Source: Streptomyces sp. NBC_01198
Lineage (GTDB): Bacteria > Actinomycetota > Actinomycetes > Streptomycetales > Streptomycetaceae
Length of the DNA: 64,000 nucleotides
NCBI RefSeq assembly: GCF_036010485.1
Contig: NZ_CP108568.1
Coordinates: 5,091,001-5,155,000 of the forward strand
Direction of reading: 5' to 3'
The notes below the pieces were generated by a model. That model was not told the origin of the DNA, ran no database searches, and saw nothing but the letters and a program-made list of their open reading frames with translations. The position numbers and the translations under genes are program-made. Each line of letters starts with the position of its first letter. The stretch's first letter is position 1. Shown here piece by piece: positions 6,513-62,018 of this stretch.

Positions 6513-6548
6513 GTGGCTTGTCGCGCCGTTCCCCGCGCCCCTGAAAAA
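6513..6548 (+). repeat. Streptomyces-type dispersed intergenic motif
   Basis: The stretch contains GTTCCCCGCGCCCCTGAAAA preceded by GTGGCTTGTCGCGCC. This closely resembles a short motif that I recall as frequent in Streptomyces intergenic regions. Its function is not known to me. It may mark a transcript end after ispE. Confidence 0.55.
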
Positions 6549-6624
6549 CGCTCACCCTCTGCGGCAGCGGCCCCCCTGGCAGGGACCAACCCCCGACGGT
6601 GGAAGACGCAGGCCCCAAGGCGTG

Positions 6625-6654
6625 TGGGGGTACCCCCAGGCGGAGCGCTGGGGG
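6625..6654 (+). repeat. Overlapping palindromes (alternative hairpins)
   Basis: TGGGGGTACCCCCA (6625-6638) is a perfect 14-bp palindrome. Its right half also pairs with a downstream arm: CCCCCAG (6633-6639) and CTGGGGG (6648-6654) around an 8-base loop. The two structures exclude each other. The element may be a terminator for ispE or a dispersed repeat. A related imperfect palindrome occurs at 37071-37088. Confidence 0.6.
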
Positions 6655-6825
6655 AGAACGGAGCGCTCGGCCCCCACCGGGCCGCAGGTGAGCACGCCAC
6701 GGCAAGGGGGGAAGCCCGGGCGGCGGAGGCGGCGAGCGCCCCCGGGGGTGGTCGGGGGGAAAAGGGGGGCGGCGGGGGCGATTAGGCTGAGGGGAGTTGT
6801 TCCCCTGCGCTTGGAGAGACGAGAA

Positions 6826-12829: not shown

Positions 12830-13806
12830 GTGAGAGCCCCAGGAAGCTGCTGGTCACCGGTGGAGCCGGATACGTCGGTTCGGTGGTCGGCGCCCATCTG
12901 CTGGCCGCCGGGCACCAGGTGACGGTGCTCGACGACCTGTCCACCGGCTTCCGCGAAGGGGTGCCGGACGGCGCGGACTTCGTGGAGGGCCGGGTCCAGG
13001 ACGCGGCCAAGGTGCTCGACGGCTCCTATGACGCGGTGCTGCACTTCGCCGCGTCCTCGCAGGTCGGCGAGTCGGTCGCCGACCCGGCGAAGTACTGGCG
13101 CAACAACGTCGGCGGCACCCTCGAACTGCTCGACGCCATGCGCGAGTCACGGGTCCGTACGCTGGTCTTCTCCTCCACCGCCGCCACCTACGGCGAGCCC
13201 GCGCACGTCCCGATCACCGAGGACGCCGTCACCGCGCCCACCAACCCCTACGGCGCCACCAAGCTCGCCGTCGACCACATGATCGGCGGCGAATGCGCCG
13301 CTCACGGCCTGGCCGCGGTGTCGCTGCGGTACTTCAACGTGGCGGGCGCGTACGGCAGGTACGGCGAGCGGCACCACCCCGAGTCGCACCTGATCCCGCT
13401 GGTCCTGCAGGTCGCCCAGGGCCGCAGGGACGCCATCGCGGTCTACGGCGAGGACTACCCGACACCCGACGGCACCTGCCTGCGCGACTACATCCACGTC
13501 GCCGACCTCGCCGAGGCGCACCTGCTGGCGCTCGACCACGCGGCCGCGGGCGAGCACCTCATCTGCAACCTCGGCAACGGCAGCGGGTTCTCCGTCCGCG
13601 ACGTCATCGACACCGTGCGGCGCGTCACCGGGCACCCGATCCCGGAGACCGCCGAGCCGCGCCGGGCCGGCGACCCCGCCGCGCTGGTCGCCTCCGCCCA
13701 GCGCGCGCACGACCGGCTCGGCTGGTCGCCCACCCGCACCGACCTCGCGGACATCGTCCGCGACGCCTGGACCTTCGCCCAATCCCTCGGGGAGGACGCA
13801 CGATGA
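12826..13806 (+). CDS. galE: UDP-glucose 4-epimerase
   Basis: This 326-residue short-chain dehydrogenase interconverts UDP-glucose and UDP-galactose. It has the NAD-binding [11 protein letters not shown] at the N-terminus, [11 protein letters not shown] (catalytic Ser/Thr region), [11 protein letters not shown] with the YxxxK pair, LRYFNVAGA and the GDPAALVAS tail motif. The GTG lies inside the galT stop (GTGA overlap), and its own stop overlaps the galK start. It is the middle gene of galTEK and also supplies sugar nucleotides for cell-surface glycans. Confidence 0.96.
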
Positions 13807-14933
13807 CGGACCTCGGCATAGCTTTCAAGGACGTCTTCGGGCGGGCGCCTGAGGGCAGTTGGGCCGCACCCGGACGGGTGAACCTGATCGGCGAGCACAC
13901 CGACTACAACGACGGGCACGTGCTGCCCTTCGCGCTCCCGCAGACCACCAGGGCCGCCGTCGCGCGCCGCGACGACGGCCTGCTGCGGGTGCACTCCGCC
14001 GACATGGACGGCGGCGCCGTCGAGCTGCGGATCGACGACCTCGCCCCCGGTGTCGCGGCCGGCTGGGCCACCTACCCGGCCGCGGTGCTGTGGACGCTGC
14101 GCGAAGCGGGGCACCCGGTCGGCGGCGCGGACATCCACTACGAGAGCACCGTCCCGGTCGGCGGCGGCCTGTCCTCCTCCGCCGCGCTGCAGGTGGTCAC
14201 CGCGCTCGCCCTCGGCGACCTGCACGGTGTCGAGATGAGCCGGCAGGATCTCGCACTGCTCTGCCAGCGCTCGGAGAACGTCTACGTCGGCGCGCCCGTC
14301 GGCGTCATGGACCAGACCGCGTCCGCGTGCTGCACCGAGGGCCACGCGCTGCACCTCGACGTACGCGGCCTCCAACAGCGCCAGGTGCCGCTGGACCTGG
14401 CGGGCCAGGACCTGACGCTGCTGGTGGCCGACACCCGGGTCAAGCACGCCCACTCCGACGGTGCCTATGCCGCGCTGCGGGCCGGCTGCGAGGCCGCGGC
14501 CGCCGAGCTCGGCCTGTCCTCGCTGCGCGACCTGCCGGCCGGCGGGCTGGACGCGGCCCTGGACGCACTCGCCGACGAGCGGCTGCGCCGCCTCACCCGG
14601 CACGTCGTCACCGAGAACGCCCGCGTCGAGGAGGTCATCGGCCTGCTCGACGCCGGGCGCATCCGGGACATCGGGCCGGTCCTCACCGCCGGCCACCGGT
14701 CGCTGCGCGACGACTTCCAGGTGTCCTGCCCGGAGCTCGACCTCGTGGTCGACACGGCGCTGGCGGCCGGCGCGCTCGGGGCCAGGATGACCGGCGGCGG
14801 CTTCGGCGGCTCCGCGGTGGTCCTGGCGGGCGCGGCCGACGCCGCAGCCGTCACCGCGGCCGTGCAGGCCGCGCTCCCGGCTGTCCGCGTCTTCCCGGCC
14901 ACTCCGTCACCGGGCGCGTACCGGCTTTCCTGA
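13803..14933 (+). CDS. galK: Galactokinase
   Basis: This 376-residue GHMP kinase phosphorylates galactose with ATP, the first step of the Leloir pathway. It shows the galactokinase signature [15 protein letters not shown], the ATP loop [23 protein letters not shown] and the C-terminal [11 protein letters not shown]. It overlaps galE by 4 bases (ATGA). A hairpin overlaps its stop codon and closes the operon. Confidence 0.96.
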
Positions 14934-14948
14934 CGGATCGTCGGAAAG
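14925..14948 (+). terminator. Terminator overlapping the galK stop codon
   Basis: CTTTCC and GGAAAG flank GACG-gat-CGTC, giving a 10-bp stem with a single bulged T and a 3-base loop. The stop TGA (14931-14933) lies inside the left arm. Confidence 0.5.
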
Positions 14949-15229
14949 GTACGGACCACAGACCCGGAAACGGCACTGGAACGTGCTCCGAAAAGCCCCT
15001 GCTGACGCTGTTGAGCCGCCCGGACGGGCAACTTCCGCCAAGACGGCGCCAATCTCCGGGGAAGCCCCTACGCTTTTCCCACAGCGCCGGTGGGGGCCGG
15101 CGCTCATCAGGGGGCGAGACGCACGGGATTCGGCATCCGTGACCGGGGCGGCGGCCCCGCCACGGGTGCCGGATCCCACGCGATGACGCCCCGCCACTGG
15201 GGGAGAGCCGTACAGCGGGAGTGGTGTCC

Positions 15230-16027
15230 GTGGGACGAATCCGCGTGCTCGTCGTCGATGACCATCGCATCTTCGCCGAGTCGCTCGCCGCCGCACTCGC
15301 GGCGGAATCCGACGTCGACGTGTCAGCGGCGGGCAGCGGGCCCGCCGCTCAGCGCTGTCTGGACCGCGCCGCGGTCGACGGCAGGCGCTACGACGTCCTG
15401 CTGGTCGACGCGGACCTGGGCACAGGTCCGCGCGACCGGCCCCAACTGGCCGCCGTGCCGCCGCTGTCGGAGCAGCGCCGCGTCGAGCCGCGCGACCCCG
15501 TCATCGACGGCCTCGCGCTGGTCGAACGGGTCCGTGCCGAGCACCTGGGCACCCGTACGGTGGTGCTGGCCGAGCGCGACGACCCGCACCGCGCCGCGTG
15601 CGCGCTGCAGGCGGGGGCGTCCGGCTGGGTGGCCAAGGACTGCTCGCTGTCCCGGCTGCTGGCCGTGGTGCGCGGGGTGCTGCGGGACGAGACGCATCTG
15701 CCGCCCGCCCTGCTGACCGGCGTCCTGCGCGAGCTGACCGCGGCCCGCAGGCACCGCACCGAGAGCGAGCAGCTGGTCGAGTCGCTGACGCCGCGCGAGC
15801 AGGAGGTGCTGCGCTGCATGGTCGCGGGCCTCGGCCGCAAGGCGGTCGCCGAGCGGCTGTTCCTGTCCCCGCACACGGTCCGCACCCACATGCAGAACGT
15901 GCTGGGCAAGCTCGGCGTGCACTCCACGCTCGCCGCCGTGGCACTGGCCCGGCGGGCCGGTGTGGGTCCGGTGGAGCTGGTCCCCTCAGCCGGGGATGTT
16001 GTCGAAAGGCGCGGTCAGCTGTCGTAG
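15230..16027 (+). CDS. LuxR-family two-component response regulator
   Basis: This protein of about 265 residues has a receiver domain with DDH at 10-12, the acceptor aspartate D60 in YDVLLVDADLG and the lysine in GWVAKD. A LuxR-type helix-turn-helix (LTPREQEVLRCM to HSTLAAVALARR) follows. A hydrophilic insertion of about 28 residues follows the acceptor strand and is unusual. Three in-frame GTG codons (15221, 15224, 15230) compete; the last has the best spacing to GGGAG at 15217-15221. No kinase gene is adjacent. Its last 42 bases overlap the end of the convergent tamR gene. Confidence 0.85.
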   Translation: MGRIRVLVVDDHRIFAESLAAALAAESDVDVSAAGSGPAAQRCLDRAAVDGRRYDVLLVDADLGTGPRDRPQLAAVPPLSEQRRVEPRDPVIDGLALVERVRAEHLGTRTVVLAERDDPHRAACALQAGASGWVAKDCSLSRLLAVVRGVLRDETHLPPALLTGVLRELTAARRHRTESEQLVESLTPREQEVLRCMVAGLGRKAVAERLFLSPHTVRTHMQNVLGKLGVHSTLAAVALARRAGVGPVELVPSAGDVVERRGQLS

Positions 16028-29965: not shown

Positions 29966-32626
29966 TTACAGCAGCCCGTCCCACATCTGCTCGATCAGCA
30001 CCGACCACCAGTTGTCGGGCGAGGCGATCGCCGCCGGGTCCTGCGCCGCCAGCGCGGCCTGGAAGTCGACCGTCCAGTGGCCCGCCTGCTCGGGGGTCAG
30101 CCCGATCCGCAGCCGCCACATCCGGCCGAGCAGCGCCAGGCTGCGGGCGAACTCGGGCAGGCTGGAGTTCACGAACTGCGGTGCCGCGGGCGGCGAACCC
30201 GCGGGCCCGCCCTCCAGCGGCAGCGCCACGATGTGCGCGGTGCCGTACTGCACGCACAGCTGGCGCCCGAAGTCGTTGCCCATCACCAGATACGAACCCG
30301 CGTCCGCGGCCGGCTGCACCCCGCGGGAGGCGGCCAGTTCGGCCAGCGTCGGCACCGGCTGGCCGGGCTGGGCCTGCGCCCAGAAGAACGGCCCGAAGTC
30401 CACCGGCAACCCGGCCCACATCAGGGTCTGCGCCACGATGTCGGGCACCCCCTGCCGGGAGACGGCCCGCTGGTCGAAGCGGAAGATCCCGGGCGGCCCG
30501 AAGGCGCCCGCCAGCTCCTGCCCGATCACGTCGAGCCCGACCGGCGGCACCCGCAGTACGGTGTGCGGGTCGGGCATCGGCACCCGCTGCGGCTGCGGGC
30601 GGGCGGGAGCGCCCGCCACCTGGTGCAGTTCGCCCTGGTGCGTCAGCAGGTGCTGCACGCCCTGCCGGCGGCTCGCGTGGTCCCGCCCGTAGGGCGCGGT
30701 GTGGCTGATCCGCACCTGCGGCCAGGTCTCCCTGATCATCCGGGTGCAGTAACCGCCGGGCAGGTCGCAGGACTCCAGTTCGGTGTGCAGTTCGAGCACC
30801 TGCTCAGGGCGCACCCCGGCCGACCGCAGCTCGTGCAGGATCTGCCACTCCGGATGGGGGGTGCCGGGCGCGGAGCGCCTGATGATCTGCTGCTCGCTGC
30901 CGTCCTGGCCGCGGTAGCGCAGCACCGCCATGTAGCCGGGCCCCACCGTCGGCACGCCGGCCGGCGGCTGCGGATAGCCGTAGCCGGGCGCGGGCGGCGG
31001 CGCGGCGGGCCCGCCGGCGTAGGGCGGCGGGGGCGGCGGAGCGCCGCCACCGGGAGCGCCGGCGAAGGGCCCCGGCGGCGGGGGCGGCGGAGCGCCGCCC
31101 AGCGCGGGTCCGGCGACGGCGGGTCCGGCGAGCATGGTGGCCGCGTAGTGCGGGTCGTTGCTCGCGGGGGGCGGCGTTGTGCCGGGGGCGCCTCCGTAGG
31201 GCGGCGGGGGTGGTGGAGCAGCGGGGCTGCCCCCGTAGGGCGGCGGAGGTGGTGGCGCACCGGCGCTGCCTCCGTACGGCGGCGGGGGTGGCGGGGTGCC
31301 GGGGGTACCCGCGTAGGGCGGCGGGGGTGGCGGGGTGCCGGGGGTACCCGCGTACGGCGGCGGGGGTGGCGGTGTGCCAGGAGTCCCGGCGTAGGGCGGC
31401 GGGGGCGTGCCGCCGCCGGGAGTTCCGGCGAAAGGGATGTGGGGCGGGTTGCCGCCGCCTCCGGCGAGCATGGTGGCCGCGTAGTGGGGGTCGTTGCTCG
31501 CGGGGGACGGCGGTGTGCCGGGGGTCCCTCCGTACGCCGGCAGCGGCGGTGTGCCGGGAGTCCCGGCGTAGGGCGGCGGGGGAGTACCGCCCTGCCGGGA
31601 CGGGGGAGCCGGCGGCACGTTGCCGCGGACCGCCTTGGCCGTCTCAAGGCCCGCGATGTCCGCGGTACTTCCGGGTCCGCTGCCTGGGCCTGCGCCCTGA
31701 CCGCCCGCGGACGGCGGGGGAAGGGGGACGCCGGGGCCGCTCGGCGGCGGGTAGGCGGAGCCGCCCACGGTGTGCGGCACCCCGCCGCGCGCCGGCGGAG
31801 GCGCCTGCTCGGGCGTGCCGCTGCCGCCGGGCAGCAGGTCGGTCCGCTCCTCGGCGGCGTCGGGCCGCGGCGCCTGCGGCGGCAGGTCCGCGCCGACCGG
31901 CGGTGCGAAGACGGTGGCCGGGACCGGCACCGACTGCCCCCCGCTGGAGCCGCTGACCGTCTTGCCCGCCCAACTGTCGCCTTCCTGCGGCCCGTTGTGC
32001 TCGGGGACGGCGGCGGGCCGCCGGACGTAGTCGACGCCCCCCGATCCCTCGGACGCGGCGGCAGGCCGCTGCCGGTCGGGCTCCTGGGGCGTGCTCTCCG
32101 CGGCGGCCGGCCGCCGGTAGCCGATCCGGCCCGCGGATTCCCCCCCGCCGGACGGCGTACTCGTGCCGCCGGACGGCGTGCTCGTGCCGGAGCCGGCATC
32201 GGCATCACTGCCGGCGCGGGCGGTCGCGGCGGCGCTGTCCTGCCTGCGGTCCGGGATGCCCATCCGGTCCGCCGCGTCCTGCAGCCACTGCGGCGGGCTC
32301 AGCAGGAAGGACGTCGCCTCCAGGTCGATGCGCTGCGGCGGTTCCGGCGCCGCGTCGTTAGGCACAGCGCCGTACTCCTCCTCGTAGCGGCGGATCAACT
32401 CGCCGATGGGCAGGGCGGGCCACAAGGTGGCCTCCCCGCTGTCGCGGGCGATGACCACCCGTATGTCGCCGCCGTCGTCCGCCGAGGGGCCGCCCTCGCG
32501 CGGCTCCGACCAGATGACGAAGCCGAGGTCGAACTCGCGCACCCGGATCTCGCGGTGCTCGTAGGGCGGCACGCCGCCGTTGATCCAGTGCTCCGCGCGC
32601 TCCTGCGCCTGAGCGAAAGTCACCAT
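29966..32626 (-). CDS. Deaminase-like protein with C-terminal SUKH-4-like domain and proline-rich linker
   Basis: This 886-residue multi-domain protein has no signal peptide or membrane helix. Residues 1-90 (FAQAQERAEHWING, FVIWSEP, GEATLWP) resemble small immunity-type domains of the Imm35/YrhB sort. Residues 90-340 are a disordered linker. Residues 340-560 are Pro/Gly-rich with tandem YAGTPGTPPPPPP units and a duplicated SNDPHYAATMLAG. Residues 565-665 look like a nucleic acid/nucleotide deaminase, with HPEW (591-594) and CDLPGGYC (620-627) as candidate zinc/catalytic motifs. Residues 690-886 resemble SUKH-4. It starts 7 bases after the WHH-SUKH gene, so both are probably one operon. Activity and target are unproven, and the deaminase subfamily is not assigned. 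Confidence 0.75.
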   Translation of the reverse strand: MVTFAQAQERAEHWINGGVPPYEHREIRVREFDLGFVIWSEPREGGPSADDGGDIRVVIARDSGEATLWPALPIGELIRRYEEEYGAVPNDAAPEPPQRIDLEATSFLLSPPQWLQDAADRMGIPDRRQDSAAATARAGSDADAGSGTSTPSGGTSTPSGGGESAGRIGYRRPAAAESTPQEPDRQRPAAASEGSGGVDYVRRPAAVPEHNGPQEGDSWAGKTVSGSSGGQSVPVPATVFAPPVGADLPPQAPRPDAAEERTDLLPGGSGTPEQAPPPARGGVPHTVGGSAYPPPSGPGVPLPPPSAGGQGAGPGSGPGSTADIAGLETAKAVRGNVPPAPPSRQGGTPPPPYAGTPGTPPLPAYGGTPGTPPSPASNDPHYAATMLAGGGGNPPHIPFAGTPGGGTPPPPYAGTPGTPPPPPPYAGTPGTPPPPPPYAGTPGTPPPPPPYGGSAGAPPPPPPYGGSPAAPPPPPPYGGAPGTTPPPASNDPHYAATMLAGPAVAGPALGGAPPPPPPGPFAGAPGGGAPPPPPPYAGGPAAPPPAPGYGYPQPPAGVPTVGPGYMAVLRYRGQDGSEQQIIRRSAPGTPHPEWQILHELRSAGVRPEQVLELHTELESCDLPGGYCTRMIRETWPQVRISHTAPYGRDHASRRQGVQHLLTHQGELHQVAGAPARPQPQRVPMPDPHTVLRVPPVGLDVIGQELAGAFGPPGIFRFDQRAVSRQGVPDIVAQTLMWAGLPVDFGPFFWAQAQPGQPVPTLAELAASRGVQPAADAGSYLVMGNDFGRQLCVQYGTAHIVALPLEGGPAGSPPAAPQFVNSSLPEFARSLALLGRMWRLRIGLTPEQAGHWTVDFQAALAAQDPAAIASPDNWWSVLIEQMWDGLL

Positions 32627-36357: not shown

Positions 36358-36849
36358 GTGACCGTCAGTGTGCGTTTCCCGGTCGGCGTCGACACCGCGC
36401 TGCGGGCCGGCGGCTGGGAGCCCGGCCGGTGGGACATCAAGCAGGCCGAGGACTGGGCCGATCTGCTGCGCGGGCACGTCTCGCCCGCCGGGCACCGGCA
36501 CGCCGTCTTCCCGGCCGCCGTCGAGGCGTGGGCCGAATTCGGCGGCCTCGCGTATCCGGCCGCCTCGGGGCCGGGACGGCTGGTCGCGCCCAGCGCGGTC
36601 ACCGTCGACCCGCTGCTCGGCCTGCACATGGCGCGAACCTTCGCCGACCTCGGCCGGGCGCTGGAGACCGAGGTCAGCCCGCTCGGCGAGGAGCCGGGCT
36701 CCGGCGCCCTGCTGGCCATCGACGCCGAGGGCCGGGTCTACGCCATCGACCACGCGGGGGACTGGTACGTCGGCCCCGACATCGACCTGGCCCTGGCCGC
36801 CCTGATCGGCGGCGGCCGCACCGTACGGCTCACGCTCGCCGCGCACTGA
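36358..36849 (+). CDS. SUKH-3 family immunity-type protein
   Basis: This 163-residue protein has the SUKH-3 pattern: LRAGGWEPGRWDIKQAEDW, AAVEAWAEFGGLAYP, TVDPLLGLHMA, LETEVSPLGEE and LLAIDAEGRVYAIDHAGDWY. SUKH-3 proteins usually bind and block a partner nucleic-acid-active toxin. The GTG at 36358 is 7 bases after the YwqJ-type gene, and the two are almost surely one operon. It is the third SUKH-type domain within 7 kb. Binding to the adjacent deaminase is inferred. Confidence 0.82.
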   Translation: MTVSVRFPVGVDTALRAGGWEPGRWDIKQAEDWADLLRGHVSPAGHRHAVFPAAVEAWAEFGGLAYPAASGPGRLVAPSAVTVDPLLGLHMARTFADLGRALETEVSPLGEEPGSGALLAIDAEGRVYAIDHAGDWYVGPDIDLALAALIGGGRTVRLTLAAH

Positions 36850-40600: not shown

Positions 40601-40747
40601 CTCCCTTCCCCGGGGGAGGCGTACCGGGAGTGCGGGCGGGCCGGAGGCCGTACGCTGGAAGGACCCCCCGGCCCGTGACACGTGTCGGGCGGTTGGCGTT
40701 GCCCGCGCGGCGGCGCCCCCTCACGCACCCCCCGGGACGGAATCTGT

Positions 40748-44287
<3,540 letters not shown>

Positions 44288-44388: not shown

Positions 44389-45342
44389 GTGACGATCACC
44401 GGTGCGGGGACGAACGTACGGCCGCTGGCCGCCGGGCAGCGCGCCCGGCTGCTGGTCGGCGACATCGAGGGCGGCGAGCCGCGGCTGGTCCACGAGACCG
44501 CGGACAGCGCCCTGGAAGCGCCGAACTGGTCCCCGGACGGCCGCTGGCTGGTCGTCAACCAGGACGGGCTGCTGCTGCGGATCCCCGCCGACGCCTCCCA
44601 CGGCGACGGCGTGCTGCCCGAGGTCATCGACACCGGCGGCATCACCGACGCCAACAACGACCACGTGCTCTCACCGGACGGCGCCACCCTCTACCTGTCG
44701 GCAGGCGACGGGCACATCCACGCGGTGCCCTTCACCGGCGGCCCCGCCCGCCGGGTCACCAACGACCGCGCCCCCGGCCCCTTCCGGCACTTCCTGCACG
44801 GCGTCTCACCGGACGGTCTGACCCTGTCCTACGTCGGCGTCGAGCCCCACGGCGGCGACGAGTGGGGCTACCGCAACATCTTCACCCTCCCGGCCGCAGG
44901 CGGTCCCGACACCCGGCTGACCGACAGCCCGGCTCCCGCCGACGGCCCGGAATTCACCCCGGACGGCGACTGGATCCTCTTCAACTCCGAGCACGGCGCC
45001 ACCACCCCGGGCCACGCCCAGCTCTTCCGGATGCGCCCCGACGGCTCCGAGTTGACCCGGCTGACCTGTGACGAACGCGTCAACTGGTTCCCCCATCCCT
45101 CCCCCGACGGACGGCACATCCTCTACATCAGCTTCCCGCCGGGCACCGAGGGCCACCCCGCCGACCGCGACGTCGTGCTGCGCCTGCTGGACCCCGCCGG
45201 CGGCGCCCCGCGCGACCTGGTCGCCTTCTTCGGCGGCCAGGGCAGCCTCAACGTCAACAGCTGGTCCCCCGACAGCCGCCACTTCGCCTACGTCGACTAC
45301 CCGGTGGACTCCGCGGCCGACTCCCGGACGGGCGCCGCCTAG
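44389..45342 (+). CDS. TolB-like beta-propeller protein
   Basis: This 317-residue protein is built of WD40/TolB-type repeats with the recurring signature W/xSPDGRxL: APNWSPDGRWLVV, HVLSPDGATLYLS, GVSPDGLTLSY, FTPDGDWILFNS, HPSPDGRHILYIS and NSWSPDSRHFAYV. That makes about six blades. There is no signal peptide, so it is probably cytosolic, unlike periplasmic TolB. Such proteins are often scaffolds or peptidase-like relatives, but no catalytic domain is attached. Its stop overlaps that of the convergent DUF2079 gene by 4 bases. Confidence 0.85.
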   Translation: MTITGAGTNVRPLAAGQRARLLVGDIEGGEPRLVHETADSALEAPNWSPDGRWLVVNQDGLLLRIPADASHGDGVLPEVIDTGGITDANNDHVLSPDGATLYLSAGDGHIHAVPFTGGPARRVTNDRAPGPFRHFLHGVSPDGLTLSYVGVEPHGGDEWGYRNIFTLPAAGGPDTRLTDSPAPADGPEFTPDGDWILFNSEHGATTPGHAQLFRMRPDGSELTRLTCDERVNWFPHPSPDGRHILYISFPPGTEGHPADRDVVLRLLDPAGGAPRDLVAFFGGQGSLNVNSWSPDSRHFAYVDYPVDSAADSRTGAA

Positions 45343-46937
45343 TTCCGCCGCAGGATCACGTAGCCGTCCTGGTTGGCTATCTCCGTGTACGTCGAGCCCG
45401 GATGCAGCTGCGTGCCGTAGGTCAACGGGTCCGGCACCCAGCCGCTGGAGTTGTCCAGCGCGATGTACTGCGGCACCACTCCGGTCGCGCCGCCCACCCA
45501 GTAGACGGTGGTGCGGTGCACCAGCCGGCTTATCGGCCCGACGTTCGCCTCCACGGTGGCGCCGTCGGGTATCAGGTCAAGCACCTTCTCCACCGCCTTG
45601 GTGCGCGCGTCGACCTTGTAGGTGTCGCTGTGGCTCAGCGACGCCAGCGGCAGTGACAAGGTCAGCACCATCGCCGCTCCCACCGCCGCGGCCGGCACCC
45701 CGGACGCGTACGACCGCAGCCAGGGCAGCGGGCTCCGCTTGAAGCGGTCCGCCGCGTCCACCAGGGCCAGGAAGATCACCGGCATCAGCACCGCGCTGTA
45801 GTGCCAGGCCGTGCCCCAGTTCTCCGGGTAGTGCGACAGGAACCGCCATCCGATGGTCGGCAGCGCCGCCACGATCAGCGGCGACCGCAGCGCCAGCAGC
45901 CCGCTGGTCGGCAGCAGCATCCACAGCAGCGTGCGCACCGCGGTGCCGAACGGGATGCGCCCCGTCATCGTGCCGTCGCCGTTGATGTGGTTGAACGCGT
46001 CGTAGCCGGGGCCGTGGAAGGCGGGGATCAGCACCCCGAGTGCCAGCGCGGACGCCGCCACTCCGAAGCCCATCAGCCCGATCGCCCAAGGCCCGTAACG
46101 CTGTGCGTCGCTCAGCGGCGCCTCCACCTGGTCACCTCCTCCCGATGTCCCGTCCTGCTCCGTGATGTCCGGTCCGGCACGGTCGCCCGCGACCGTGCCG
46201 GCCGGCTGCCGCTCACCCGCCGCCTGCGCCGGGACGGACGTCTCCGGCTCCGCCGGCTCCCGGGTGCGCCACCAGACGATCGCGCCGATCACCGCGGCCG
46301 TGACGCCCATGTCCTCCTTGACCAGCACCAGTGGCAGCGCCCACCACATCGCCGCGGCCCAGCGCCTGCGGAGCACCGCCTCCAGCGAGAAGGCCAGCAG
46401 CGGCATGGCGAACGCGACCTCGTGGAAGTCGAAGTCGACCGCCCGCTGCACCCCCCACGACAGCCCGTACGCGACCCCCACGGCCAGCCCGCGGCCCCGC
46501 CCGAGCAGCAGCCCGGCGCCCCGGGTGACCGGGATCACCGACAGCGCGAACAGCAGCGCCTGGGCCACCAGCAGGGTCGCCGGGGTCGGGAAGACCCGGT
46601 AGAAGGGGGCGATCAGCGCCGTGATCGGGCTGAAGTGGTCGCCGAGCGCGTTGAACCCCGGGCCCTTCAACGCAGTGGTCGGCGCCTGCAGATGCGCGTA
46701 GCCGCGGACCGCCTGCTCGAAGATGCCCAGATCCCAGGACATCGTCAGCATCCGCCGATACCGGGTCAGCGACAGCAGGACGTAGGCGACGAAGAAGACG
46801 GCACCCAGCAGGTAGGGATCCGGCCGCGTCCCCGCGATCCGCTCCCGCAGCCCGGAAAGGGCGGTCAACCCTGGTGCGGCGGTGCGTGGCACGGCCTCGC
46901 CGCTCTTCTGCGGTATGACGGCCTCGGCCCTGTCCAT
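45339..46937 (-). CDS. DUF2079 polytopic membrane protein (paralogue 1)
   Basis: This 532-residue membrane protein has about ten helices. The DUF2079 signatures are strong: SWDLGIFEQAVRGYAHLQAP, GDHFSPITALIAPFYRVFP, VDFDFHEVAFAMPLLAFSL and PLVLVKEDMG, then WRFLSHYPENWGTAWHYSAV. Relatives resemble GT-C glycosyltransferases, and acidic residues in SWDLG and HE could be catalytic, but no substrate is known. Residues about 230-275 are a hydrophilic insertion (Glu/Gly/Thr-rich) absent from the paralogue at 52357. A membrane glycan-transfer role is inferred. Confidence 0.85.
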   Translation of the reverse strand: MDRAEAVIPQKSGEAVPRTAAPGLTALSGLRERIAGTRPDPYLLGAVFFVAYVLLSLTRYRRMLTMSWDLGIFEQAVRGYAHLQAPTTALKGPGFNALGDHFSPITALIAPFYRVFPTPATLLVAQALLFALSVIPVTRGAGLLLGRGRGLAVGVAYGLSWGVQRAVDFDFHEVAFAMPLLAFSLEAVLRRRWAAAMWWALPLVLVKEDMGVTAAVIGAIVWWRTREPAEPETSVPAQAAGERQPAGTVAGDRAGPDITEQDGTSGGGDQVEAPLSDAQRYGPWAIGLMGFGVAASALALGVLIPAFHGPGYDAFNHINGDGTMTGRIPFGTAVRTLLWMLLPTSGLLALRSPLIVAALPTIGWRFLSHYPENWGTAWHYSAVLMPVIFLALVDAADRFKRSPLPWLRSYASGVPAAAVGAAMVLTLSLPLASLSHSDTYKVDARTKAVEKVLDLIPDGATVEANVGPISRLVHRTTVYWVGGATGVVPQYIALDNSSGWVPDPLTYGTQLHPGSTYTEIANQDGYVILRRN

Positions 46938-47113: not shown

Positions 47114-47809
47114 TCAGTCGGTCTTCGTCCACTTGCCGCAGCCCGAGGTCTTGAAGTAGGCGTCGCGGCTGCCGATGGTGACCACGCCCTTCCCGGTGAC
47201 GTTGTCGTTCGCCGCTATCGAGTCCACATCGTGCAGCGCGTCCTTGGTGCGCTCCCAGTAGCAGGCGTCCCCGCCGCTGGTCTTGTAGGTGCCGGCGGCT
47301 ATGTCGGTGCCCACCTTGAACATGCCGTCGCCGGGCATCGACGTCTTCGGCGCACCGCTCTTCTCGGCGCCGGCCGCGAACCAGTCCTTGCAGTCGGTCG
47401 TCTTGAAGATCTTGTCCGTCTTCTTGATCGTCACGTAGCTGCTGCCGGTGACGTTGTCGTTGGCCAGGATCGAGTCCGTCCCGCCCTTGGCGTCCTTGGC
47501 GCGCTCCCAGTAGCACATGCCGTCGTCGTTCCCGCTGGTCCTGTAGGTGCCGGGCTGGATGTCGGTGCCGACCTGGAAGGTGCCGTCGCCCTTGAAGGCC
47601 GGCTTGACCGCCGGCTTGCCCTCTTTCTTCTTGGCTGCCGCCGACGCGGGCGCGGACGAGGCGGTGCCGCCCGCCTTGCCGCCGGTCGAGCCGGCGGAGG
47701 CGGCCGAGGAGGCGGAGTCGTCCGCGGGACCGCAGGCGGCCGCGCCGACAGCGAGGACGCCGGCGACGGTGCCTGCGGCGGCGAGCCGGACGAGAGACGT
47801 CTTGGACAT
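47114..47809 (-). CDS. Lipoprotein with two tandem copies of a small domain
   Basis: This 231-residue protein has a signal peptide and lipobox (AVGAAACGP), then an Ala/Ser/Lys-rich linker. It ends in two copies of a domain of about 65 residues. Each begins GDGxFxVGTDI, then GTYxTSG, a CYWER motif, DSIxANDNVTG, and a second cysteine near the end (KTTDCKDW and KTSGCGKW). The paired cysteines probably form a disulphide in each copy. The start is at 47809 rather than the longer frame at 47866, since MSKTSLVRLAAAG is a proper signal peptide. It is divergent from the methyltransferase-like gene. No enzyme function is apparent. Confidence 0.83.
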   Translation of the reverse strand: MSKTSLVRLAAAGTVAGVLAVGAAACGPADDSASSAASAGSTGGKAGGTASSAPASAAAKKKEGKPAVKPAFKGDGTFQVGTDIQPGTYRTSGNDDGMCYWERAKDAKGGTDSILANDNVTGSSYVTIKKTDKIFKTTDCKDWFAAGAEKSGAPKTSMPGDGMFKVGTDIAAGTYKTSGGDACYWERTKDALHDVDSIAANDNVTGKGVVTIGSRDAYFKTSGCGKWTKTD

Positions 47810-48009
47810 GGGATTTCCCCCCAGTGTTCGGCGGGCCTCGATGGCCCTGTGAACCGTTGTCACCATGAGAGCATTCGACTGTTAACCGAGTCAACGGGAA
47901 ATCTCGAACGAGTGATGTTCACGCCGTGAAGGGGTTCGCCCACGATCGCTGGGTATGCTCGCTCACACGAACACGTCGAACGCGGACGAACCGGGGGAAG
48001 GAGAAAACC

Positions 48010-50067
48010 GTGCCCGAGCACGCGAGTGAGGTGACAGCGGCGGGAATCGCCAGGCTGGCGGGTGTCGGAAGGGCCGCCGTCAGCAACTGGCGCCGACGCC
48101 ACGACGACTTCCCCCGGCCCGTCGGTGGCTCAGACACCAGTCCCACCTACGAGCTGACGGCCGTCGAGCGCTGGCTCCACGAGCAGGGCAAGCTCCCCTC
48201 CGTGCCGCCGCACGAGCGGCTCTGGCAGCGGGCCGACAGCCACCCCGACGGCGTGCCGGCCGCGTTGCGCATCGCCGGATCCCTGCTGATGGTCATGCAG
48301 GGGGACCCCGCGCTCTCCGTCAGCTACACCGCCGCGACCGACGACGAGCTCGCCGCCCGCCTGCCGGCCGAGATGGAGACGGCGCTGGCCGCCCGATTCG
48401 GCCCCGAGCACCCGGTGCACCTGCCGGACAGCCTCGACGACGCCGTGCCGCTGCTCCGCACCACCGCGAAGTTCGCCCAGGACACCGGCCCTGCCCAGAC
48501 CTACGAGTTCCTGTTCGGCCGCTATCTGGACGCCAACCCGCGGCAGTTCACCCTCACCCCGCAGGGCCCGGCCGAGCTGATGGCCGCGCTCGCCGGCGAC
48601 CGTCCCGGCCGCGTGCTCGACCCCGCAAGCGGCAGCGGTGCGCTGCTGCGCGCCTCCTCGGCCACCGAGTCCGTGTACGGGCAGGAGATCGACCCCGAGC
48701 TCGCCTCGCTCACCGCGCTGCGGCTCGCCATGGCCACCGACCCGGCCGTCAGCATCCGGATGAGCTCGGGCGACAGCCTGCGCGAGGACGCCCACCGCGA
48801 GCTGACCGTCGACACCGTGCTCTGCCACCCGCCCTTCAACGACCGCAACTGGGGCCACGACGAGCTGGGTTACGACCCGCGCTGGGAGTACGGCTTCCCG
48901 GCCCGTACCGAGTCCGAGCTGGCCTGGCTGCAGCACTCGCTCGCCCATGTCCGCGACGGCGGCACCGTCGTGATGCTCATGCCGCCGGCCGCCGCGTCCC
49001 GCCGGTCCGGCCGCCGGGTCCGCGCCGACCTGCTGCGCAGGGGTGCGCTGCGCGCGGTCGTGGCGCTGCCCGCGGGAGCGGCCCCGCCGCACGGCCTGCC
49101 GCTGCATCTGTGGGTGCTGCGCAAACCGGACCCCGACCGGCGTCCCCCCGGGGAGCTGCTGGTCTTCGACGCCGCCGGAATACCGGAACACGGCGCGGAG
49201 AAGGCGCCCTGGTACGCCGTCAGCGCCGCGGTTCTCGACACGTGGGCGGGCTTCGACCTGCACGGCTCGGTGCCTGACCGCCCCGGGGTCAACCGGACGC
49301 TGCCGGTGATCGAGCTGCTCGACGACGACGTGGACGTGACCCCGGCCCGGCATCTGCCACCGCCCACCGCCGAAGGGGGCGCGGCCGCGCTGGAGTCGGT
49401 GCGTGACCGGCTGGCGCAGACCCTGCGCCGCACCGCGGAGATAGCCCCCGCACCTCCGGCGGTCGGCGAGCCCGCCCGCTGGCCGACCACCACCGTCGGC
49501 GAACTCGCGCGGGCCGGCGCCCTGCTGATGCGGGCTGGCGGCGGAGGCACCGCCCCGGCGGACGGTTCGGCCGCGGGCCACGCCGTGCTGACCGAGCACG
49601 ACGTGGTCGTCGGCGGCGAACCGACGGGGCTGCTCCCGCCGGGCCGGCCGGACGGCACCGTCGAGGAGCCGGCGCTCGTCGAGGAGGGCGACGTGGTGGT
49701 GCCGGTCCTCGGCGGCGGCGCGGTGGCCCGGGTGGTGGACGGCGCCGCGGCCGGCGCCGCGCTGGGGCGCAACGTGTATCTGCTGCGCCCGGACACCACC
49801 GCCCTCGACCCGTGGTTCCTCGCCGGGTTCCTGCGCGGCACCGCCAACAACCGTCAGGCCAGCAGCTTCGCCTCGACCTCCACCAGGCTCGACGTGCGTC
49901 GGCTCCAGGTGCCGCGGCTGCCGCTGGCCGACCAGCGGCGGTACGGGGAGCGCTTCCGCACGCTGGCGGCGTTCGAGGAGACGCTGCGTCAGGCCACGCA
50001 GCTCGGCGACCAGCTCGTCCGGGGCCTCTACGACGGACTGACCGACGGGACGGTGCGTCCCGGATAG
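48010..50067 (+). CDS. Orphan N6-adenine DNA methyltransferase-like protein (HTH + M + S-like)
   Basis: This 685-residue protein has an N-terminal helix-turn-helix (about 8-52, AAGIARLAGVGRAAVSNWRRR). An HsdM-like methyltransferase domain (about 155-430) has SAM motif VLDPASGSGALL (about 202-213) and a motif IV reading LCHPPFNDRNWGHDELGYD. Motif IV is normally (N/D)PP(F/Y); here the first residue is histidine (H273). The C-terminal part (about 490-685) resembles a type I specificity half with LRGTANNRQA and VPRLPLADQRRYGERFRTL. No restriction subunit is nearby. AAGGAG precedes the GTG at 48010. It may be a regulatory or inactive methylase rather than a defence enzyme. Confidence 0.8.
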   Translation: MPEHASEVTAAGIARLAGVGRAAVSNWRRRHDDFPRPVGGSDTSPTYELTAVERWLHEQGKLPSVPPHERLWQRADSHPDGVPAALRIAGSLLMVMQGDPALSVSYTAATDDELAARLPAEMETALAARFGPEHPVHLPDSLDDAVPLLRTTAKFAQDTGPAQTYEFLFGRYLDANPRQFTLTPQGPAELMAALAGDRPGRVLDPASGSGALLRASSATESVYGQEIDPELASLTALRLAMATDPAVSIRMSSGDSLREDAHRELTVDTVLCHPPFNDRNWGHDELGYDPRWEYGFPARTESELAWLQHSLAHVRDGGTVVMLMPPAAASRRSGRRVRADLLRRGALRAVVALPAGAAPPHGLPLHLWVLRKPDPDRRPPGELLVFDAAGIPEHGAEKAPWYAVSAAVLDTWAGFDLHGSVPDRPGVNRTLPVIELLDDDVDVTPARHLPPPTAEGGAAALESVRDRLAQTLRRTAEIAPAPPAVGEPARWPTTTVGELARAGALLMRAGGGGTAPADGSAAGHAVLTEHDVVVGGEPTGLLPPGRPDGTVEEPALVEEGDVVVPVLGGGAVARVVDGAAAGAALGRNVYLLRPDTTALDPWFLAGFLRGTANNRQASSFASTSTRLDVRRLQVPRLPLADQRRYGERFRTLAAFEETLRQATQLGDQLVRGLYDGLTDGTVRPG

Positions 50068-50160: not shown

Positions 50161-50790
50161 ATGTACGGCCCCGGCATCGCCCCGCCGCAACCCCGCCCCG
50201 CCGGGCGTGCGACCGTGCTCTGGCTGCGCGTGCTCTTCACCGCTCTGCCGGTGCTGTCACTCGGCTTCCTCGCGTGGGGCTCGCTGCTGCGGCTTGCCCT
50301 GGTGCGCAAGAACCCGCTGGACTGGGCGCTGATGGTGATCGACATCGTCGCGATCGTCGTCGGCTACACGCTGGTCGGGCTGGCCCACGACAACACCGAC
50401 ACCTGGCAGTCCAACGCGGGAACGTTGACGGTGCTGGTGTGCATGTTCGGCACCCCCGCCTACTTCCTCGTGATGGACATCAGGGGCAAGGGGCCCCGGC
50501 CGGCCGGCTACACGACGCCGACCGGATACCCGCCGAATCCGTACGCGACCGGGTACGGCCCGGTGCCCGCGCCGATGGGCGCGGGTCGGGAGCAGGGCGG
50601 GATACCCCGGTCCGCGCCGATGCAGAGCCAGGCGCCGACCCCGACCCCGACGCCCACCCCGATGCCGCCCCACACGCCGATGCCCGCCCGGCCGCCCGTG
50701 TCCGGGCAGTCCCCGGCGCCGCGGATCGACCAGGTGCGGGCCGAGCTGGACGAGTTGAGCGACTACCTCCTCAAGGAGGAGGGCCGGTGA
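50161..50790 (+). CDS. Small membrane protein with proline-rich tail
   Basis: This 209-residue protein has about three transmembrane helices (about 15-42, 52-72 and 84-106). A cytoplasmic Pro/Thr/Met-rich region (TPTPTPTPMPPHTPMP) follows, ending in the amphipathic motif RIDQVRAELDELSDYLLKEE. The ATG at 50161 has GGAG six bases upstream. Its stop overlaps the kinase start by 4 bases, so it is translationally coupled to the kinase and is a likely partner or substrate. Confidence 0.8.
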   Translation: MYGPGIAPPQPRPAGRATVLWLRVLFTALPVLSLGFLAWGSLLRLALVRKNPLDWALMVIDIVAIVVGYTLVGLAHDNTDTWQSNAGTLTVLVCMFGTPAYFLVMDIRGKGPRPAGYTTPTGYPPNPYATGYGPVPAPMGAGREQGGIPRSAPMQSQAPTPTPTPTPMPPHTPMPARPPVSGQSPAPRIDQVRAELDELSDYLLKEEGR

Positions 50791-52328
50791 TCGGTCGGCT
50801 CATCGCCGGCCGGTACGAACTGTCCACCGTCATCGGCCAGGGCGGCATGGGCCAGGTGTGGACGGCGTACGACCGGCGGCTCGACCGTCGGGTCGCGGTG
50901 AAGCTGTTGCGGCCCGACAAGGTCGCCGGCGGTGACGACGCCGACGACCTGCGCCGGCGGTTCGACCGGGAGTGCCGGGTCACCGCCCAGGTCGACCACC
51001 CGGGCCTGGTGACCGTCCATGACGCGGGGGCGGACGGCGACGAGCTGTATCTGGTGATGCAGTACGTGGAGGGGGCCGATCTCGGCGACCATCTCGCAGA
51101 GCACGAGCCGTATCCGTGGCCGTGGGCGGTGGCGGTGGCGGCGCAGTTGTGCGCCGTGCTGTCGGCGGTGCACGCGGTGCCGATAGTCCACCGCGACCTC
51201 AAGCCGCGCAATGTGATGGTCCGTCCGGACGGCACGATCACGGTGCTCGACCTGGGGGTGGCGTCGGTGATGGACACCGACACCACCCGGCTGACCCACA
51301 CCGGTTCGCCGATCGGCAGCCCGGCGTACATGGCGCCGGAGCAGGCGATGGGCGGCGCGGTCGGCCCGCGCACCGACCTGTACGCGCTCGGCGTGCTGCT
51401 GCACGAACTGCTCAGCGGCAATGTGCCGTTCGCCGGCACCACGGCGCTCGGCGTGCTGCACCGGCACCTGTACGAGGCGCCCGTGCCGCTGCGGCAGTTC
51501 CGGCCGGAGGTGCCCGAGCCGCTGGAGTCCCTGGTGCTGCGGCTGCTCGGCAAGGACCCGGAGCACCGGCCCGCCGGCGCGCTGGACGTCTACCGCGAGC
51601 TGGCCGCGCTGCTTCCGCCGCCGCATTCGGCGCACCGGGCGCCGGGGCCGCTCGACCCGACGCGGCCCTTCCTGCGGCCCCAGGCGCCCTGGCCCGAGCA
51701 CGCCGCGGCACCCGCTCCCGCCGTGGCCGCACCGGTGCCGCCCCCGCTGCCGGCGCAGGCGCCGCGGCGCGCCGACCTGGCGGCGGCCGTCGACGAGGTC
51801 AAGCGGTTGCTTGACGCCGGCCGGATCACCCAGGCCGTCGACCTGCTCGGCGGCATCATCCCGGCCGCCGCGGAGAAGCACGGCGAGCACTCGCCGGTCC
51901 TGCGCGCGCTGCGCAAGCAGTACGCGGCGACGTTGATGGAGGACGGGCAGTATCGCCGGGCGCTGCCCGAACTGCGGCTGCTGTCAGAGGAGTTCGCCGC
52001 GCAGTACGGCGGCGCCGACCGCCAGGCGCTGCAGTTCCGCTACGAGGCGGCCCAGTGCCTGGAGCAGCTCGGCGACCCCAGGGCCGCGCTGTCCGAATAC
52101 CGCGTGCTGCTGCCGTACTTCGAGCAGTACGCCGCCACCAGCCCCGGCACCCCGCTGGACATCCGCCGCAGGACGGCCCATCTGCTGCTGTCCGTCGGCG
52201 ACCCGGCGGCCGCCCGCGACGTCCTCACCCGGCTCCTCTACGACGCCGACCGCGTGCACGGCCCGCACCACCCCTTCCCCGCCGAGATCCGCAGGACCCT
52301 GGCCTGGCTCGGCCAGGTCCAGGCGTGA
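50787..52328 (+). CDS. Soluble Ser/Thr protein kinase with C-terminal TPR-like region
   Basis: In this 513-residue protein, residues 8-275 form a Hanks-type kinase: glycine loop GQGGMGQVW, VAVKLL with K39, HRDLKPRN (D137, N142), metal-binding LDLG (D155), and MAPEQ (E185). These residues are intact, so it should be active. A Pro/Ala-rich linker (about 275-330) leads to TPR-like helices (about 335-513: DEVKRLLDAGRITQAVDLL, YAATLMEDGQYRRALPELR, YEAAQCLEQLGDPRAALSEY, LLLSVGDPAAARDVL). No transmembrane helix or PASTA repeat is present. The coupled membrane protein upstream may recruit it to the membrane. The target is unknown. Confidence 0.9.
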   Translation: MIGRLIAGRYELSTVIGQGGMGQVWTAYDRRLDRRVAVKLLRPDKVAGGDDADDLRRRFDRECRVTAQVDHPGLVTVHDAGADGDELYLVMQYVEGADLGDHLAEHEPYPWPWAVAVAAQLCAVLSAVHAVPIVHRDLKPRNVMVRPDGTITVLDLGVASVMDTDTTRLTHTGSPIGSPAYMAPEQAMGGAVGPRTDLYALGVLLHELLSGNVPFAGTTALGVLHRHLYEAPVPLRQFRPEVPEPLESLVLRLLGKDPEHRPAGALDVYRELAALLPPPHSAHRAPGPLDPTRPFLRPQAPWPEHAAAPAPAVAAPVPPPLPAQAPRRADLAAAVDEVKRLLDAGRITQAVDLLGGIIPAAAEKHGEHSPVLRALRKQYAATLMEDGQYRRALPELRLLSEEFAAQYGGADRQALQFRYEAAQCLEQLGDPRAALSEYRVLLPYFEQYAATSPGTPLDIRRRTAHLLLSVGDPAAARDVLTRLLYDADRVHGPHHPFPAEIRRTLAWLGQVQA

Positions 52329-52356: not shown

Positions 52357-53877
52357 TCAGTCGCGCCGCAGCACCACGTAGCCGCCGGCGTCGGCGATCA
52401 GTGAGTAGCGGGCCTGCGGGTGCAGTTGCAGGGCGTAGCCGACGGGGTCCTGGAGCCAGTCGGAGCGGTTCTCGAACGCCAGGTAATCCGGCGCCCGGTC
52501 GCCGGTCTGCCCGACCCAGTAGACGGTGGTGCGCCGCACCAGGCGGCTGAGCGGCCCGACGTTCGCCTCCACCGTGGCACCGTCGGGGATCGCGGCGAGG
52601 GCCCGCTTGGCGGCCCTGGTCGGGGCGTCGACCTGATAGGCGACCCGGTGCGTCAGCCCGGCCAGCGGCAGTTGGGTGCTCAGGGCGAGTGCGGCGCCCA
52701 GCATGACGGGCGGCACCGCCCGGACGAAGGAGCGCAGCCACTCCGGCGCCCAGCGCCGGCCCGGGGCACCGAGCAGCGCCGCGCGGTCCACCGCGGCGAG
52801 GAAGACCACCGGCATGAGCACGGCGTTGTAGTGCCAGGCGGTGCCCCAGTTCTCCGGGTAGTGGGACAGGAAGCGCCAGCCGAGCGTCGGCACCACGACC
52901 AGCAGCAGCGGCGAACCGAGCGCGAGCAGCCCGCCGGCCGGCAGCAGGATCCACAGCACCGTGCGCAGCGCGGTGACCACCGGGACGTGGGCGGTGATGG
53001 ACCCGTCGCCGTTGATGTGGTTCAGGGCGTCGTAGCCGGGGCCGTGGAAGGCCGGGATGAGCCAGCTGACCTCCCAGGCCGAGGCGACGGCGCCGAAGAC
53101 CGCCAGGCCGAGCGCCCAACTGCGGACGAAGGAGCCGCCTTTGGCGCCGCGCACGGTGTCGTGGCCGGCCCGCAGCCACACCACCGCGCCGATCATCGCG
53201 ACCGCGGCGCCCATGTCCTCCTTGACCAGCACCAGCGGCACCGCCCACCCCATCGCGGTCCGCCAGCGCCGCCGCAGCACCGCGGCGAGGGAGAAGGCCA
53301 GCAGCGGCACGGCGAAGGCGATCTCGTGGAAGTCGAAGTCGACCGCCCGCTGCACCCCCCAGGACAGCCCGTAGGCGGCGCCCAGGGCCAGCCCGCGGCC
53401 GCGGTCGAGCAGGTGCGCCGCGGCGCGCGTCACGGGCACCACCGAGAGTGCGAACAGCAGCGCCTGGGCGACCAGCAGGGTCGCCGGGGTGGGGAAGACC
53501 CGGTAGAAGGGCGCGATCAGGGCGGTGATCGGGCTGAAGTGGTCGCCGAGCACGTCGAAGCCCGGCCCCTTGAGGTCGGCGACGGGTGCGTGCAGATGGG
53601 CGTAACCGCGCACCGCCTGCTCGAAGATGCCCAGGTCCCAGGACATCGTCTCCATGCGGCGGTAGCGCGAGAGCGACAGCGCCGCGTAGAGGGCCAGGAA
53701 GCCGGTGGCCAGCAGCCACGGGTCGAGGCGGGCCGGCAGCCGCCACCGCCGCACCGCCGCGGGCGCGGCCGCCGGCCCGGTGGCCGTCCGCCGTGCGGGC
53801 ACGGTCGCGGCGATGTCCCGCAGCCCGGACTCCTGGGCCGGCAGTACGGCCTCCGCACTGTCCCTGTCGCCGTCCAT
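52357..53877 (-). CDS. DUF2079 polytopic membrane protein (paralogue 2)
   Basis: This 506-residue protein is colinear with the DUF2079 protein at 45339-46937 and shares long identical stretches such as GDHFSPITALIAPFYRVFP, YGLSWGVQRAVDFDFHE and FLSHYPENWGTAWHYNAV. It lacks that protein's hydrophilic insertion. About ten helices are predicted. GGGAGGA precedes the ATG at 53877. It is convergent with the kinase gene with a 28-base gap. It is probably a GT-C-like transferase by topology; the substrate is unknown. Confidence 0.85.
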   Translation of the reverse strand: MDGDRDSAEAVLPAQESGLRDIAATVPARRTATGPAAAPAAVRRWRLPARLDPWLLATGFLALYAALSLSRYRRMETMSWDLGIFEQAVRGYAHLHAPVADLKGPGFDVLGDHFSPITALIAPFYRVFPTPATLLVAQALLFALSVVPVTRAAAHLLDRGRGLALGAAYGLSWGVQRAVDFDFHEIAFAVPLLAFSLAAVLRRRWRTAMGWAVPLVLVKEDMGAAVAMIGAVVWLRAGHDTVRGAKGGSFVRSWALGLAVFGAVASAWEVSWLIPAFHGPGYDALNHINGDGSITAHVPVVTALRTVLWILLPAGGLLALGSPLLLVVVPTLGWRFLSHYPENWGTAWHYNAVLMPVVFLAAVDRAALLGAPGRRWAPEWLRSFVRAVPPVMLGAALALSTQLPLAGLTHRVAYQVDAPTRAAKRALAAIPDGATVEANVGPLSRLVRRTTVYWVGQTGDRAPDYLAFENRSDWLQDPVGYALQLHPQARYSLIADAGGYVVLRRD

Positions 53878-54182: not shown

Positions 54183-54923
54183 ATGGCGCACACAGCGCAC
54201 ACGAACACCAGGGCCGCACGCACCCTGGTCTGCACGGCGGCCCTCGCCGTCGCCCTGGGCGGCACCCTGGCGGGCTGCAAGGACCCGACGGTCGACGCGG
54301 GCACCGGCAGTTCCTCGTCCTCCGGCGCGAGCGCCCCGAGCGGCCACGCGGGCAAGGGCAGCGCCCTGGCCGCGGTCGGCGACCTGACCGTGAAGGGCCG
54401 GGCGCCGAAGACCGGTTACTCGCGGGACCGCTTCGGTCCCGCATGGGCGGACACCGACCACAACCACTGCGACACACGCGACGACATACTCAAACGCGAC
54501 CTGCGCCAGACGTCGTTCCGGGACGGCGCGAAGAAGTGCATCGTGACGTCGGGGACGCTCGCCGACCCCTACACCGGCAAGAAGATCACCTACACGCGCG
54601 GTGCGAGCAAGGTCGACATCGACCATGCCGTGGCCCTGTCCGACGCCTGGCAGAAGGGCGCCGCACAGTGGAAGGACGACAAGCGGGAGGACTTCGCCAA
54701 CGACCCGCTCAACCTGCTGGCCGTCGACTCGTCGACCAACCGGCGCAAGAGCGACGGCGACACCGCCACCTGGCTGCCGCCGAACGCCGCCTACCGCTGC
54801 GACTACGTGGCGCGGCAGGTCGCGGTGAAGAAGAAGTACGGCCTGTGGGTGACCTCAGCCGAGCGCGACGCCATGCGCAAGGTGCTGGGCGGCTGCTCCG
54901 ACGAGAAGCTGCCGACCGGCTGA
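54183..54923 (+). CDS. Secreted HNH-type nuclease lipoprotein
   Basis: This 246-residue protein has a signal peptide with lipobox GTLAGC (about residue 31), a Ser/Gly-rich spacer and a C-terminal HNH domain of the GmrSD-C/DUF1524 sort. Motifs are GYSRDRFGPAWADTDHNHCDTRDDIL, DIDHAVALSDAWQKGA (the DH pair and a later histidine-like site) and NLLAVDSSTNRRKSD (the N). Such proteins are cell-surface or secreted DNases for nucleotide scavenging or for DNA released by lysis. A hairpin terminator follows the stop. It is not a restriction subunit despite the shared domain. Confidence 0.88.
   Translation: MAHTAHTNTRAARTLVCTAALAVALGGTLAGCKDPTVDAGTGSSSSSGASAPSGHAGKGSALAAVGDLTVKGRAPKTGYSRDRFGPAWADTDHNHCDTRDDILKRDLRQTSFRDGAKKCIVTSGTLADPYTGKKITYTRGASKVDIDHAVALSDAWQKGAAQWKDDKREDFANDPLNLLAVDSSTNRRKSDGDTATWLPPNAAYRCDYVARQVAVKKKYGLWVTSAERDAMRKVLGGCSDEKLPTG

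Positions 54924-60692: not shown

Positions 60693-62018
<1,326 letters not shown>

Follow-up and report, generated by a model that had tools for sequence, protein, structure and literature searches.

The window, that is, the whole 64,000-nucleotide stretch of Streptomyces sp. NBC_01198 DNA analysed here, contains between mfd (40682-44287) and the enolase gene eno (60738-62018) a gene for a DNA methylase-like protein, whose parts and conserved neighbours are as follows:

47114..47866, minus strand: divergent upstream gene, no Pfam match, part of the orthologous loci
48010..50067, plus strand: methylase-like coding sequence, 685 amino acids, GTG start
48028..48186, plus strand: winged helix-turn-helix (HTH), residues 7-59, seen in the AlphaFold model, with weak MerR-type matches (BldC, CarA, BmrR)
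48496..49176, plus strand: N6_Mtase domain, residues 163-389 (Pfam PF02384, 4.5e-29; match to the PacII M chain)
48619..48639, plus strand: SAM-binding motif I, DPASGSG, residues 204-210
48826..48837, plus strand: motif IV, HPPF (NPPF in relatives), residues 273-276, located by alignment to solved M subunits
49522..49929, plus strand: target-recognition-like (S-like) region, approximately residues 505-640, assigned from PADLOC Specificity_I models and conserved like the methyltransferase domain
49924..50046, plus strand: long C-terminal helix, residues 639-679, from the secondary structure of the model
50161..50790, plus strand: conserved downstream gene, 209 amino acids, hydrophobic stretches by eye, no Pfam match
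50787..52328, plus strand: Ser/Thr protein kinase with a TPR-like C-terminus (Pkinase, 2.6e-44)

The GTG start at 48010 is backed by seven full-length orthologues, all equal in length. On either side of the module lies a DUF2079 membrane protein (45339-46937 and 52357-53835, both on the minus strand), and a protein with a GmrSD restriction endonuclease C-terminal domain is encoded 4 kb past the methylase-like gene (54183-54923, plus strand). Elsewhere in the window, an ORF on the minus strand (29966-32626) carries both a SUKH-4 immunity domain and an XOO_2897-like deaminase domain, and a SUKH-3 protein lies at 36358-36849.

An earlier reading of these letters, made from the sequence only, had proposed an orphan methylase-like protein with a usable SAM site, HPPF in place of (N/D)PPF, an N-terminal HTH and an S-like C-terminus. 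Each of these features was recovered. The PF02384 score was 102.2 bits against a cut-off of 20.4, and the M-domain fold and motif I are those expected of an N6_Mtase protein; only motif IV departs from the (N/D)PP(F/Y/W) pattern. This motif reads VLCHPPFNDRNWG, and the HMMER alignment with the M subunits of PacII and M. mazei places H273 (codon CAC, 48826-48828) where N stands in NPPF. This genome encodes two further N6_Mtase proteins, one with NPPF and the other with NPPY. In the predicted structure (mean pLDDT 86.8), the HTH is modelled as a MerR-type winged helix with a beta wing, with weak PDB matches (best E 0.05, Z ~6), and two PADLOC Specificity_I models (2.3e-5 and 3.1e-5) match at residues 552-673 (~550-673 overall). 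The accessible text of the MmeI structure paper describes the OD1 atom of Asn481 as accepting a hydrogen bond from the adenine N6 group, and NPPF as absolutely conserved in 341 aligned members (PMC4833311). This agrees with the earlier claim that the first residue of motif IV normally holds the adenine amino group.

The closest structural relatives of the catalytic part are M subunits of type I enzymes of the gamma class (HsdM, PacII M1 and M. mazei MM_0429), which share the M-domain fold, the N-terminal helical part and the SAM loop with the window protein. The PacII M chain (7vru_A) matched model residues 65-453 with a Z score of 31.9 (rmsd 4.4, 379 aligned residues, 21% identity). In comparison with these subunits, the window protein adds the HTH and a recognition region in the same chain and has HPPF for NPPF, and no R subunit was found. 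A single-chain methyltransferase from Vibrio vulnificus YJ016 (7eew) matches from the M domain to the C-terminal helix (model residues 66-685; Z 25.9, 539 aligned residues, 14% identity), leaving the HTH unmatched; the overall rmsd of 30.7 means that the domains superpose in separate pieces and not as a rigid whole. HTH-methyltransferase proteins of actinomycete type I-like loci (PADLOC MTase_I model PDLC03037) belong to the same family as the window protein, which scores 2.3e-127 with this model, while an NPPY member (L146) scores 4.1e-239. These proteins keep NPPY, and their recognition region diverges, unlike that of the HPPF clade. Next to two NPPY members (L068 and L088), PADLOC detected genes for a type I methylase or of restriction or defence type. 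The HTH had been taken as a sign of a regulator. This argument did not survive: the HTH is family-wide and also occurs in the NPPY members of restriction-modification loci, and for this reason it is no evidence of a regulatory role by itself.

We found HPPF to be a clade-wide trait, broader than first stated. It was read in all 18 closest orthologue loci, in 28 of 28 further Streptomycetaceae loci and in 80 of 80 named loci (73 Streptomyces, 3 Actinacidiphila, 3 Kitasatospora and 1 Streptacidiphilus); these sets share species, and one of the 80 readings was made by eye where the pattern missed the motif. Such invariance among 80 named orthologues is not due to chance. The closest proteins by identity are those of Actinacidiphila species (84-92%). 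Some match at E 0.001 was present in 44 of 61 genomes (60 relatives and the genome itself). In a sample of 293 genomes of the order, 224 had a match at 1e-40, and at least 150 listed places, by hand count, reached orthologue strength (E 1e-168 or better), corresponding to about half of the sample. The phylum-wide search recovered the family at 1e-60 in only 7 of 296 genomes; hence the family is chiefly one of this class. We also considered an origin from mobile elements and rejected it. Phage records gave 5 weak tblastn matches, none covering 80% of the protein, and just 2 of 224 matches to plasmid records reached a coverage of at least 80%; the best of the plasmid-record matches lies in a Nonomuraea record of 11.85 Mb, which we read as a chromosome.

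The HPPF proteins are under purifying selection, with a dN/dS of ~0.11-0.21 across seven within-genus pairs (0.033/0.31 to 0.093/0.45). In 81 Streptomycetaceae sequences, the residues H273, P274, P275, F276, N277, R279, W281 and G282 never vary, and neither do D204, P205, A206, G208 and G210 of the SAM loop, Q225 and D255. If the protein were a functionless remnant of a restriction-modification system in decay, this could account for the loss of the catalytic residue and for the many changes of motif IV in the family. This reading is disfavoured by the selection data: the frame is open in all orthologues read, dN/dS is low, the core residues are invariant and the neighbours are fixed, leaving it very improbable.

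The recognition region of the HPPF clade is conserved to the same degree as the catalytic domain, unlike that of restriction-modification relatives. At a methyltransferase-domain identity of 60-70%, its mean identity was 0.71 (minimum 0.60, 286 pairs), compared to 0.45 (minimum 0.27, 32 pairs) in an NPPY/NPPF group that includes members adjoining type I restriction genes. Kinase-linked DPPF members were less conserved in this region, with values of 0.43-0.53 at M-domain identities of 0.5-0.8 (seven pairs). A second NPPF group (L071, L090, L091 and others) reached 0.64 at 0.6-0.7 (11 pairs), so that this comparison cannot separate all canonical members from the HPPF proteins.

Motif IV varies widely across the actinomycete family. 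Among 136 family ORFs, for which only every third of the loci L031-L058 was included, we counted 61 HPPF, 23 NPPF, 10 NPPY, 7 DPPF, 7 DPPV, 5 SPPF, 4 APPF, 3 QPPS, 2 QPPT, 2 NLPF, 2 GPPS and ten singletons. With 54 Streptomycetaceae HPPF orthologues set aside, the canonical (N/D)PP(F/Y/W) was present in 40 of the remaining 82. The family tree comprised 86 rows (84 with a motif label) picked from the 136 ORFs and two outgroups, without close duplicates, the bulk of the HPPF orthologues and several nearly identical relatives; the trees are of a quick kind, with SH-aLRT as the sole support and several long branches flagged. Parsimony counts, which carry no direction, give at least 19 changes at the first residue of motif IV, at least 14 of the canonical motif and five between H and non-H, with H arising in about five places. 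The HPPF clade has a support of 100. Its sister is a QPP clade from another family of the same order (union SH-aLRT 95), in which motif IV is QPPS or QPPT and the aromatic residue is also gone. In four of these QPPS/QPPT orthologues (L061, L062, L064 and L065, out of L061-L065), the opening part of the recognition region lacks approximately 50 residues. A further branch (L077-L086), mostly of 550-aa proteins, carries DPPV, DPPA, DPPS or DPPT; its member L081 has a type IIG enzyme, a GajB-like helicase and a REase_II match in its vicinity. Genome G034 contains two family copies near both ends of one contig, and locus L138 has two nearby members (6525-8429 and 12800-15280), one with SPPF and one with HPPF.

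As a control outside the family, we read motif IV in 17 N6_Mtase domains drawn from 30 loci, a PF02384 sample skewed to the best-scoring matches, after dropping 12 in which motif IV or motif I was unreadable by pattern and one family member (L284); N was present in 16 and A in one. A Streptomycetaceae N6_Mtase protein outside the family (L295) has APPF at this place.

An active orphan methylase is a real rival, since everything around the active site is conserved. In this reading His would replace Asn, and the enzyme, perhaps controlled by the kinase, would modify adenine or a different base at a single conserved site across Streptomycetaceae. The SAM motif, HPPF, F276 and the recognition region are all kept, and the invariance of HPPF, F276, N277 and the SAM loop in 81 of 81 sequences is what an active enzyme bearing a changed residue would show as well. 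About five independent origins of H also suit this rival, since H could be functional in those places, yet AAC or GAC becomes CAC in a single step. Kinase-linked relatives with DPPF exist as well and may be active. The rival has to contend with the direct role of Asn in the MmeI structure (PMC4833311, in its accessible text), the near-universal N outside the family and the sister clade, which has the same neighbours and QPPS or QPPT without the aromatic residue. Overall, we regard an active His enzyme as a possible but rather unlikely reading.

The published methylomes do not settle this question. The accessible text on S. roseosporus reports one clear m6A motif, CGACNNNCTCC, given by prediction only to the 718-aa protein SroLm1 (PMC9240718), which would support an active methylase; SroLm1 may or may not be an orthologue of the window protein. 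The S. coelicolor methylation papers, as far as their text was accessible, concern cytosine methylation (PMC10148868; PMC6135851). According to a review table, an Mrr enzyme of S. coelicolor acts on m6A DNA (PMC3874153), which lowers the likelihood that a common enzyme sets m6A throughout the genome, although this is weak evidence. In their accessible parts, a paper on conflict systems does not mention methylases (PMC7159879) and a TagR paper says nothing about gamma-class methylases (PMC10269677). Titles and abstracts of the methylome, inactive-methylase and kinase literature, with incomplete journal coverage, yielded no paper on the window protein. Likewise, we found no PMC paper for SCO3104, which may be the S. 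coelicolor orthologue, or for five neighbouring tags.

The 209-aa gene was present in 78 of 80 named loci, at a median of 156 bp after the methylase-like gene. For the divergent upstream gene, a similar one occurs in 23 of the 80 named loci and in two sister-clade loci (L064 and L065). The GTG of the kinase gene overlaps the stop of the 209-aa gene by 4 bases, 0.7 kb downstream of the methylase-like gene. A downstream kinase was found in 77 of the 78 named loci with enough DNA, a count that omits L216 and L222, which lie at contig ends; the exception, L268, has neither the kinase nor the 209-aa gene. In the kinase tree, the kinases beside HPPF and QPP members form sister clades (99), matching the methylase-like tree and showing that the kinase has been co-inherited with the methylase-like gene in both clades. 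Kinases also adjoin five DPPF members and GPPS/APPF members, as they do the QPP members, and in four kinase-linked DPPF members (L099, L150, L157 and L162) a PP2C phosphatase gene lies upstream. We asked whether a nearby kinase gene marks the loss of motif IV and discarded the idea: several members with a canonical motif (NPPF, NPPY or DPPF) have a kinase gene within ~1 kb, for NPPF and NPPY members sometimes on the opposite strand, and the kinase thus does not track motif loss.

The pairing of a methylase-like gene with a Ser/Thr kinase gene is reminiscent of two anti-phage systems. In BREX type 2, PglX occurs with the kinase PglW, and in MADS, MAD2 occurs with the kinase MAD6; the other core components are PglY and PglZ in the former and MAD3, 4, 7 and 8 in the latter. 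For MADS, no pertinent paper was among the matches listed. The window module could be a reduced, kinase-coupled anti-phage system of this design with the methylase-like protein as DNA sensor. PADLOC models for mad2 (5.4e-22), mad5 (3.7e-5) and mad1 (1.8e-3) match the protein, the kinase matches MAD6 at 8.4e-42, and several relatives adjoin restriction or defence-type genes. The only NCBIfam match of the protein, MAD2, is below threshold. The kinase, however, is far closer to PknB models (1.9e-87). The window module differs from both systems in this kinase and in the loss of motif IV, and Pfam scans of neighbouring proteins turned up no further MADS or BREX component. The fixed position between mfd and eno, the tree history shared by the methylase-like gene and the kinase, and a recognition region that is not diversifying also argue against a defence function, which we consider improbable. 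As the sequence-only reading had claimed, no restriction nuclease partner was detected among the 15 other window proteins scanned.

Taken together, our results favor, with a probability of roughly one half, a former type I-like methylase that has been kept as a SAM-binding, sequence-specific DNA-binding protein, linked to the kinase and no longer methylating adenine. The replacement of Asn by His (by Gln in the sister clade, with the aromatic residue lost), while the gene, its neighbours and the recognition region were kept, fits SAM and DNA binding without adenine methylation. The earlier suggestion of a methylase turned regulator thus gains from the QPP sister clade with the same neighbours, the fixed recognition region and the co-inherited kinase, and loses its HTH argument; a new specificity, the other suggestion made there, is still a possibility. 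The ancestor would have been a single-chain type I-like adenine methyltransferase composed of the HTH, the M domain, one target-recognition domain and the C-terminal helix, which probably dimerises. The Asn or Asp that positions the adenine amino group would have been lost on the branch ancestral to Streptomycetaceae and the sister family. From these data we infer with good confidence that the HPPF protein binds specific DNA, most likely one fixed sequence; that it still binds SAM is nearly as credible, and a loss of adenine methylation is likely, if slightly less so. The protein would then serve as a sensor or regulator on DNA, its activity tied to the downstream Ser/Thr kinase. Because of its co-inheritance, we place the kinase as the partner, and this functional link is plausible but more tentative.

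We thus classify the methylase-like protein as a probable type I-like pseudo-methyltransferase with a link to a kinase. A more specific and rather speculative version would make this dead methylase the SAM-sensing DNA-binding output or scaffold of a dedicated kinase, with the same exaptation recurring in actinomycetes through other motif IV residues. The distinction matters because family models label the protein a DNA methylase and about half of the genomes sampled in its order encode it. Should it lack methylation activity, the "orphan m6A methylases" assigned in antibiotic-producing bacteria would need re-examination, and a kinase-coupled regulator would have been overlooked. If it does methylate, His can stand in for a supposedly essential Asn, which would alter the interpretation of motif IV in enzymes of this kind.
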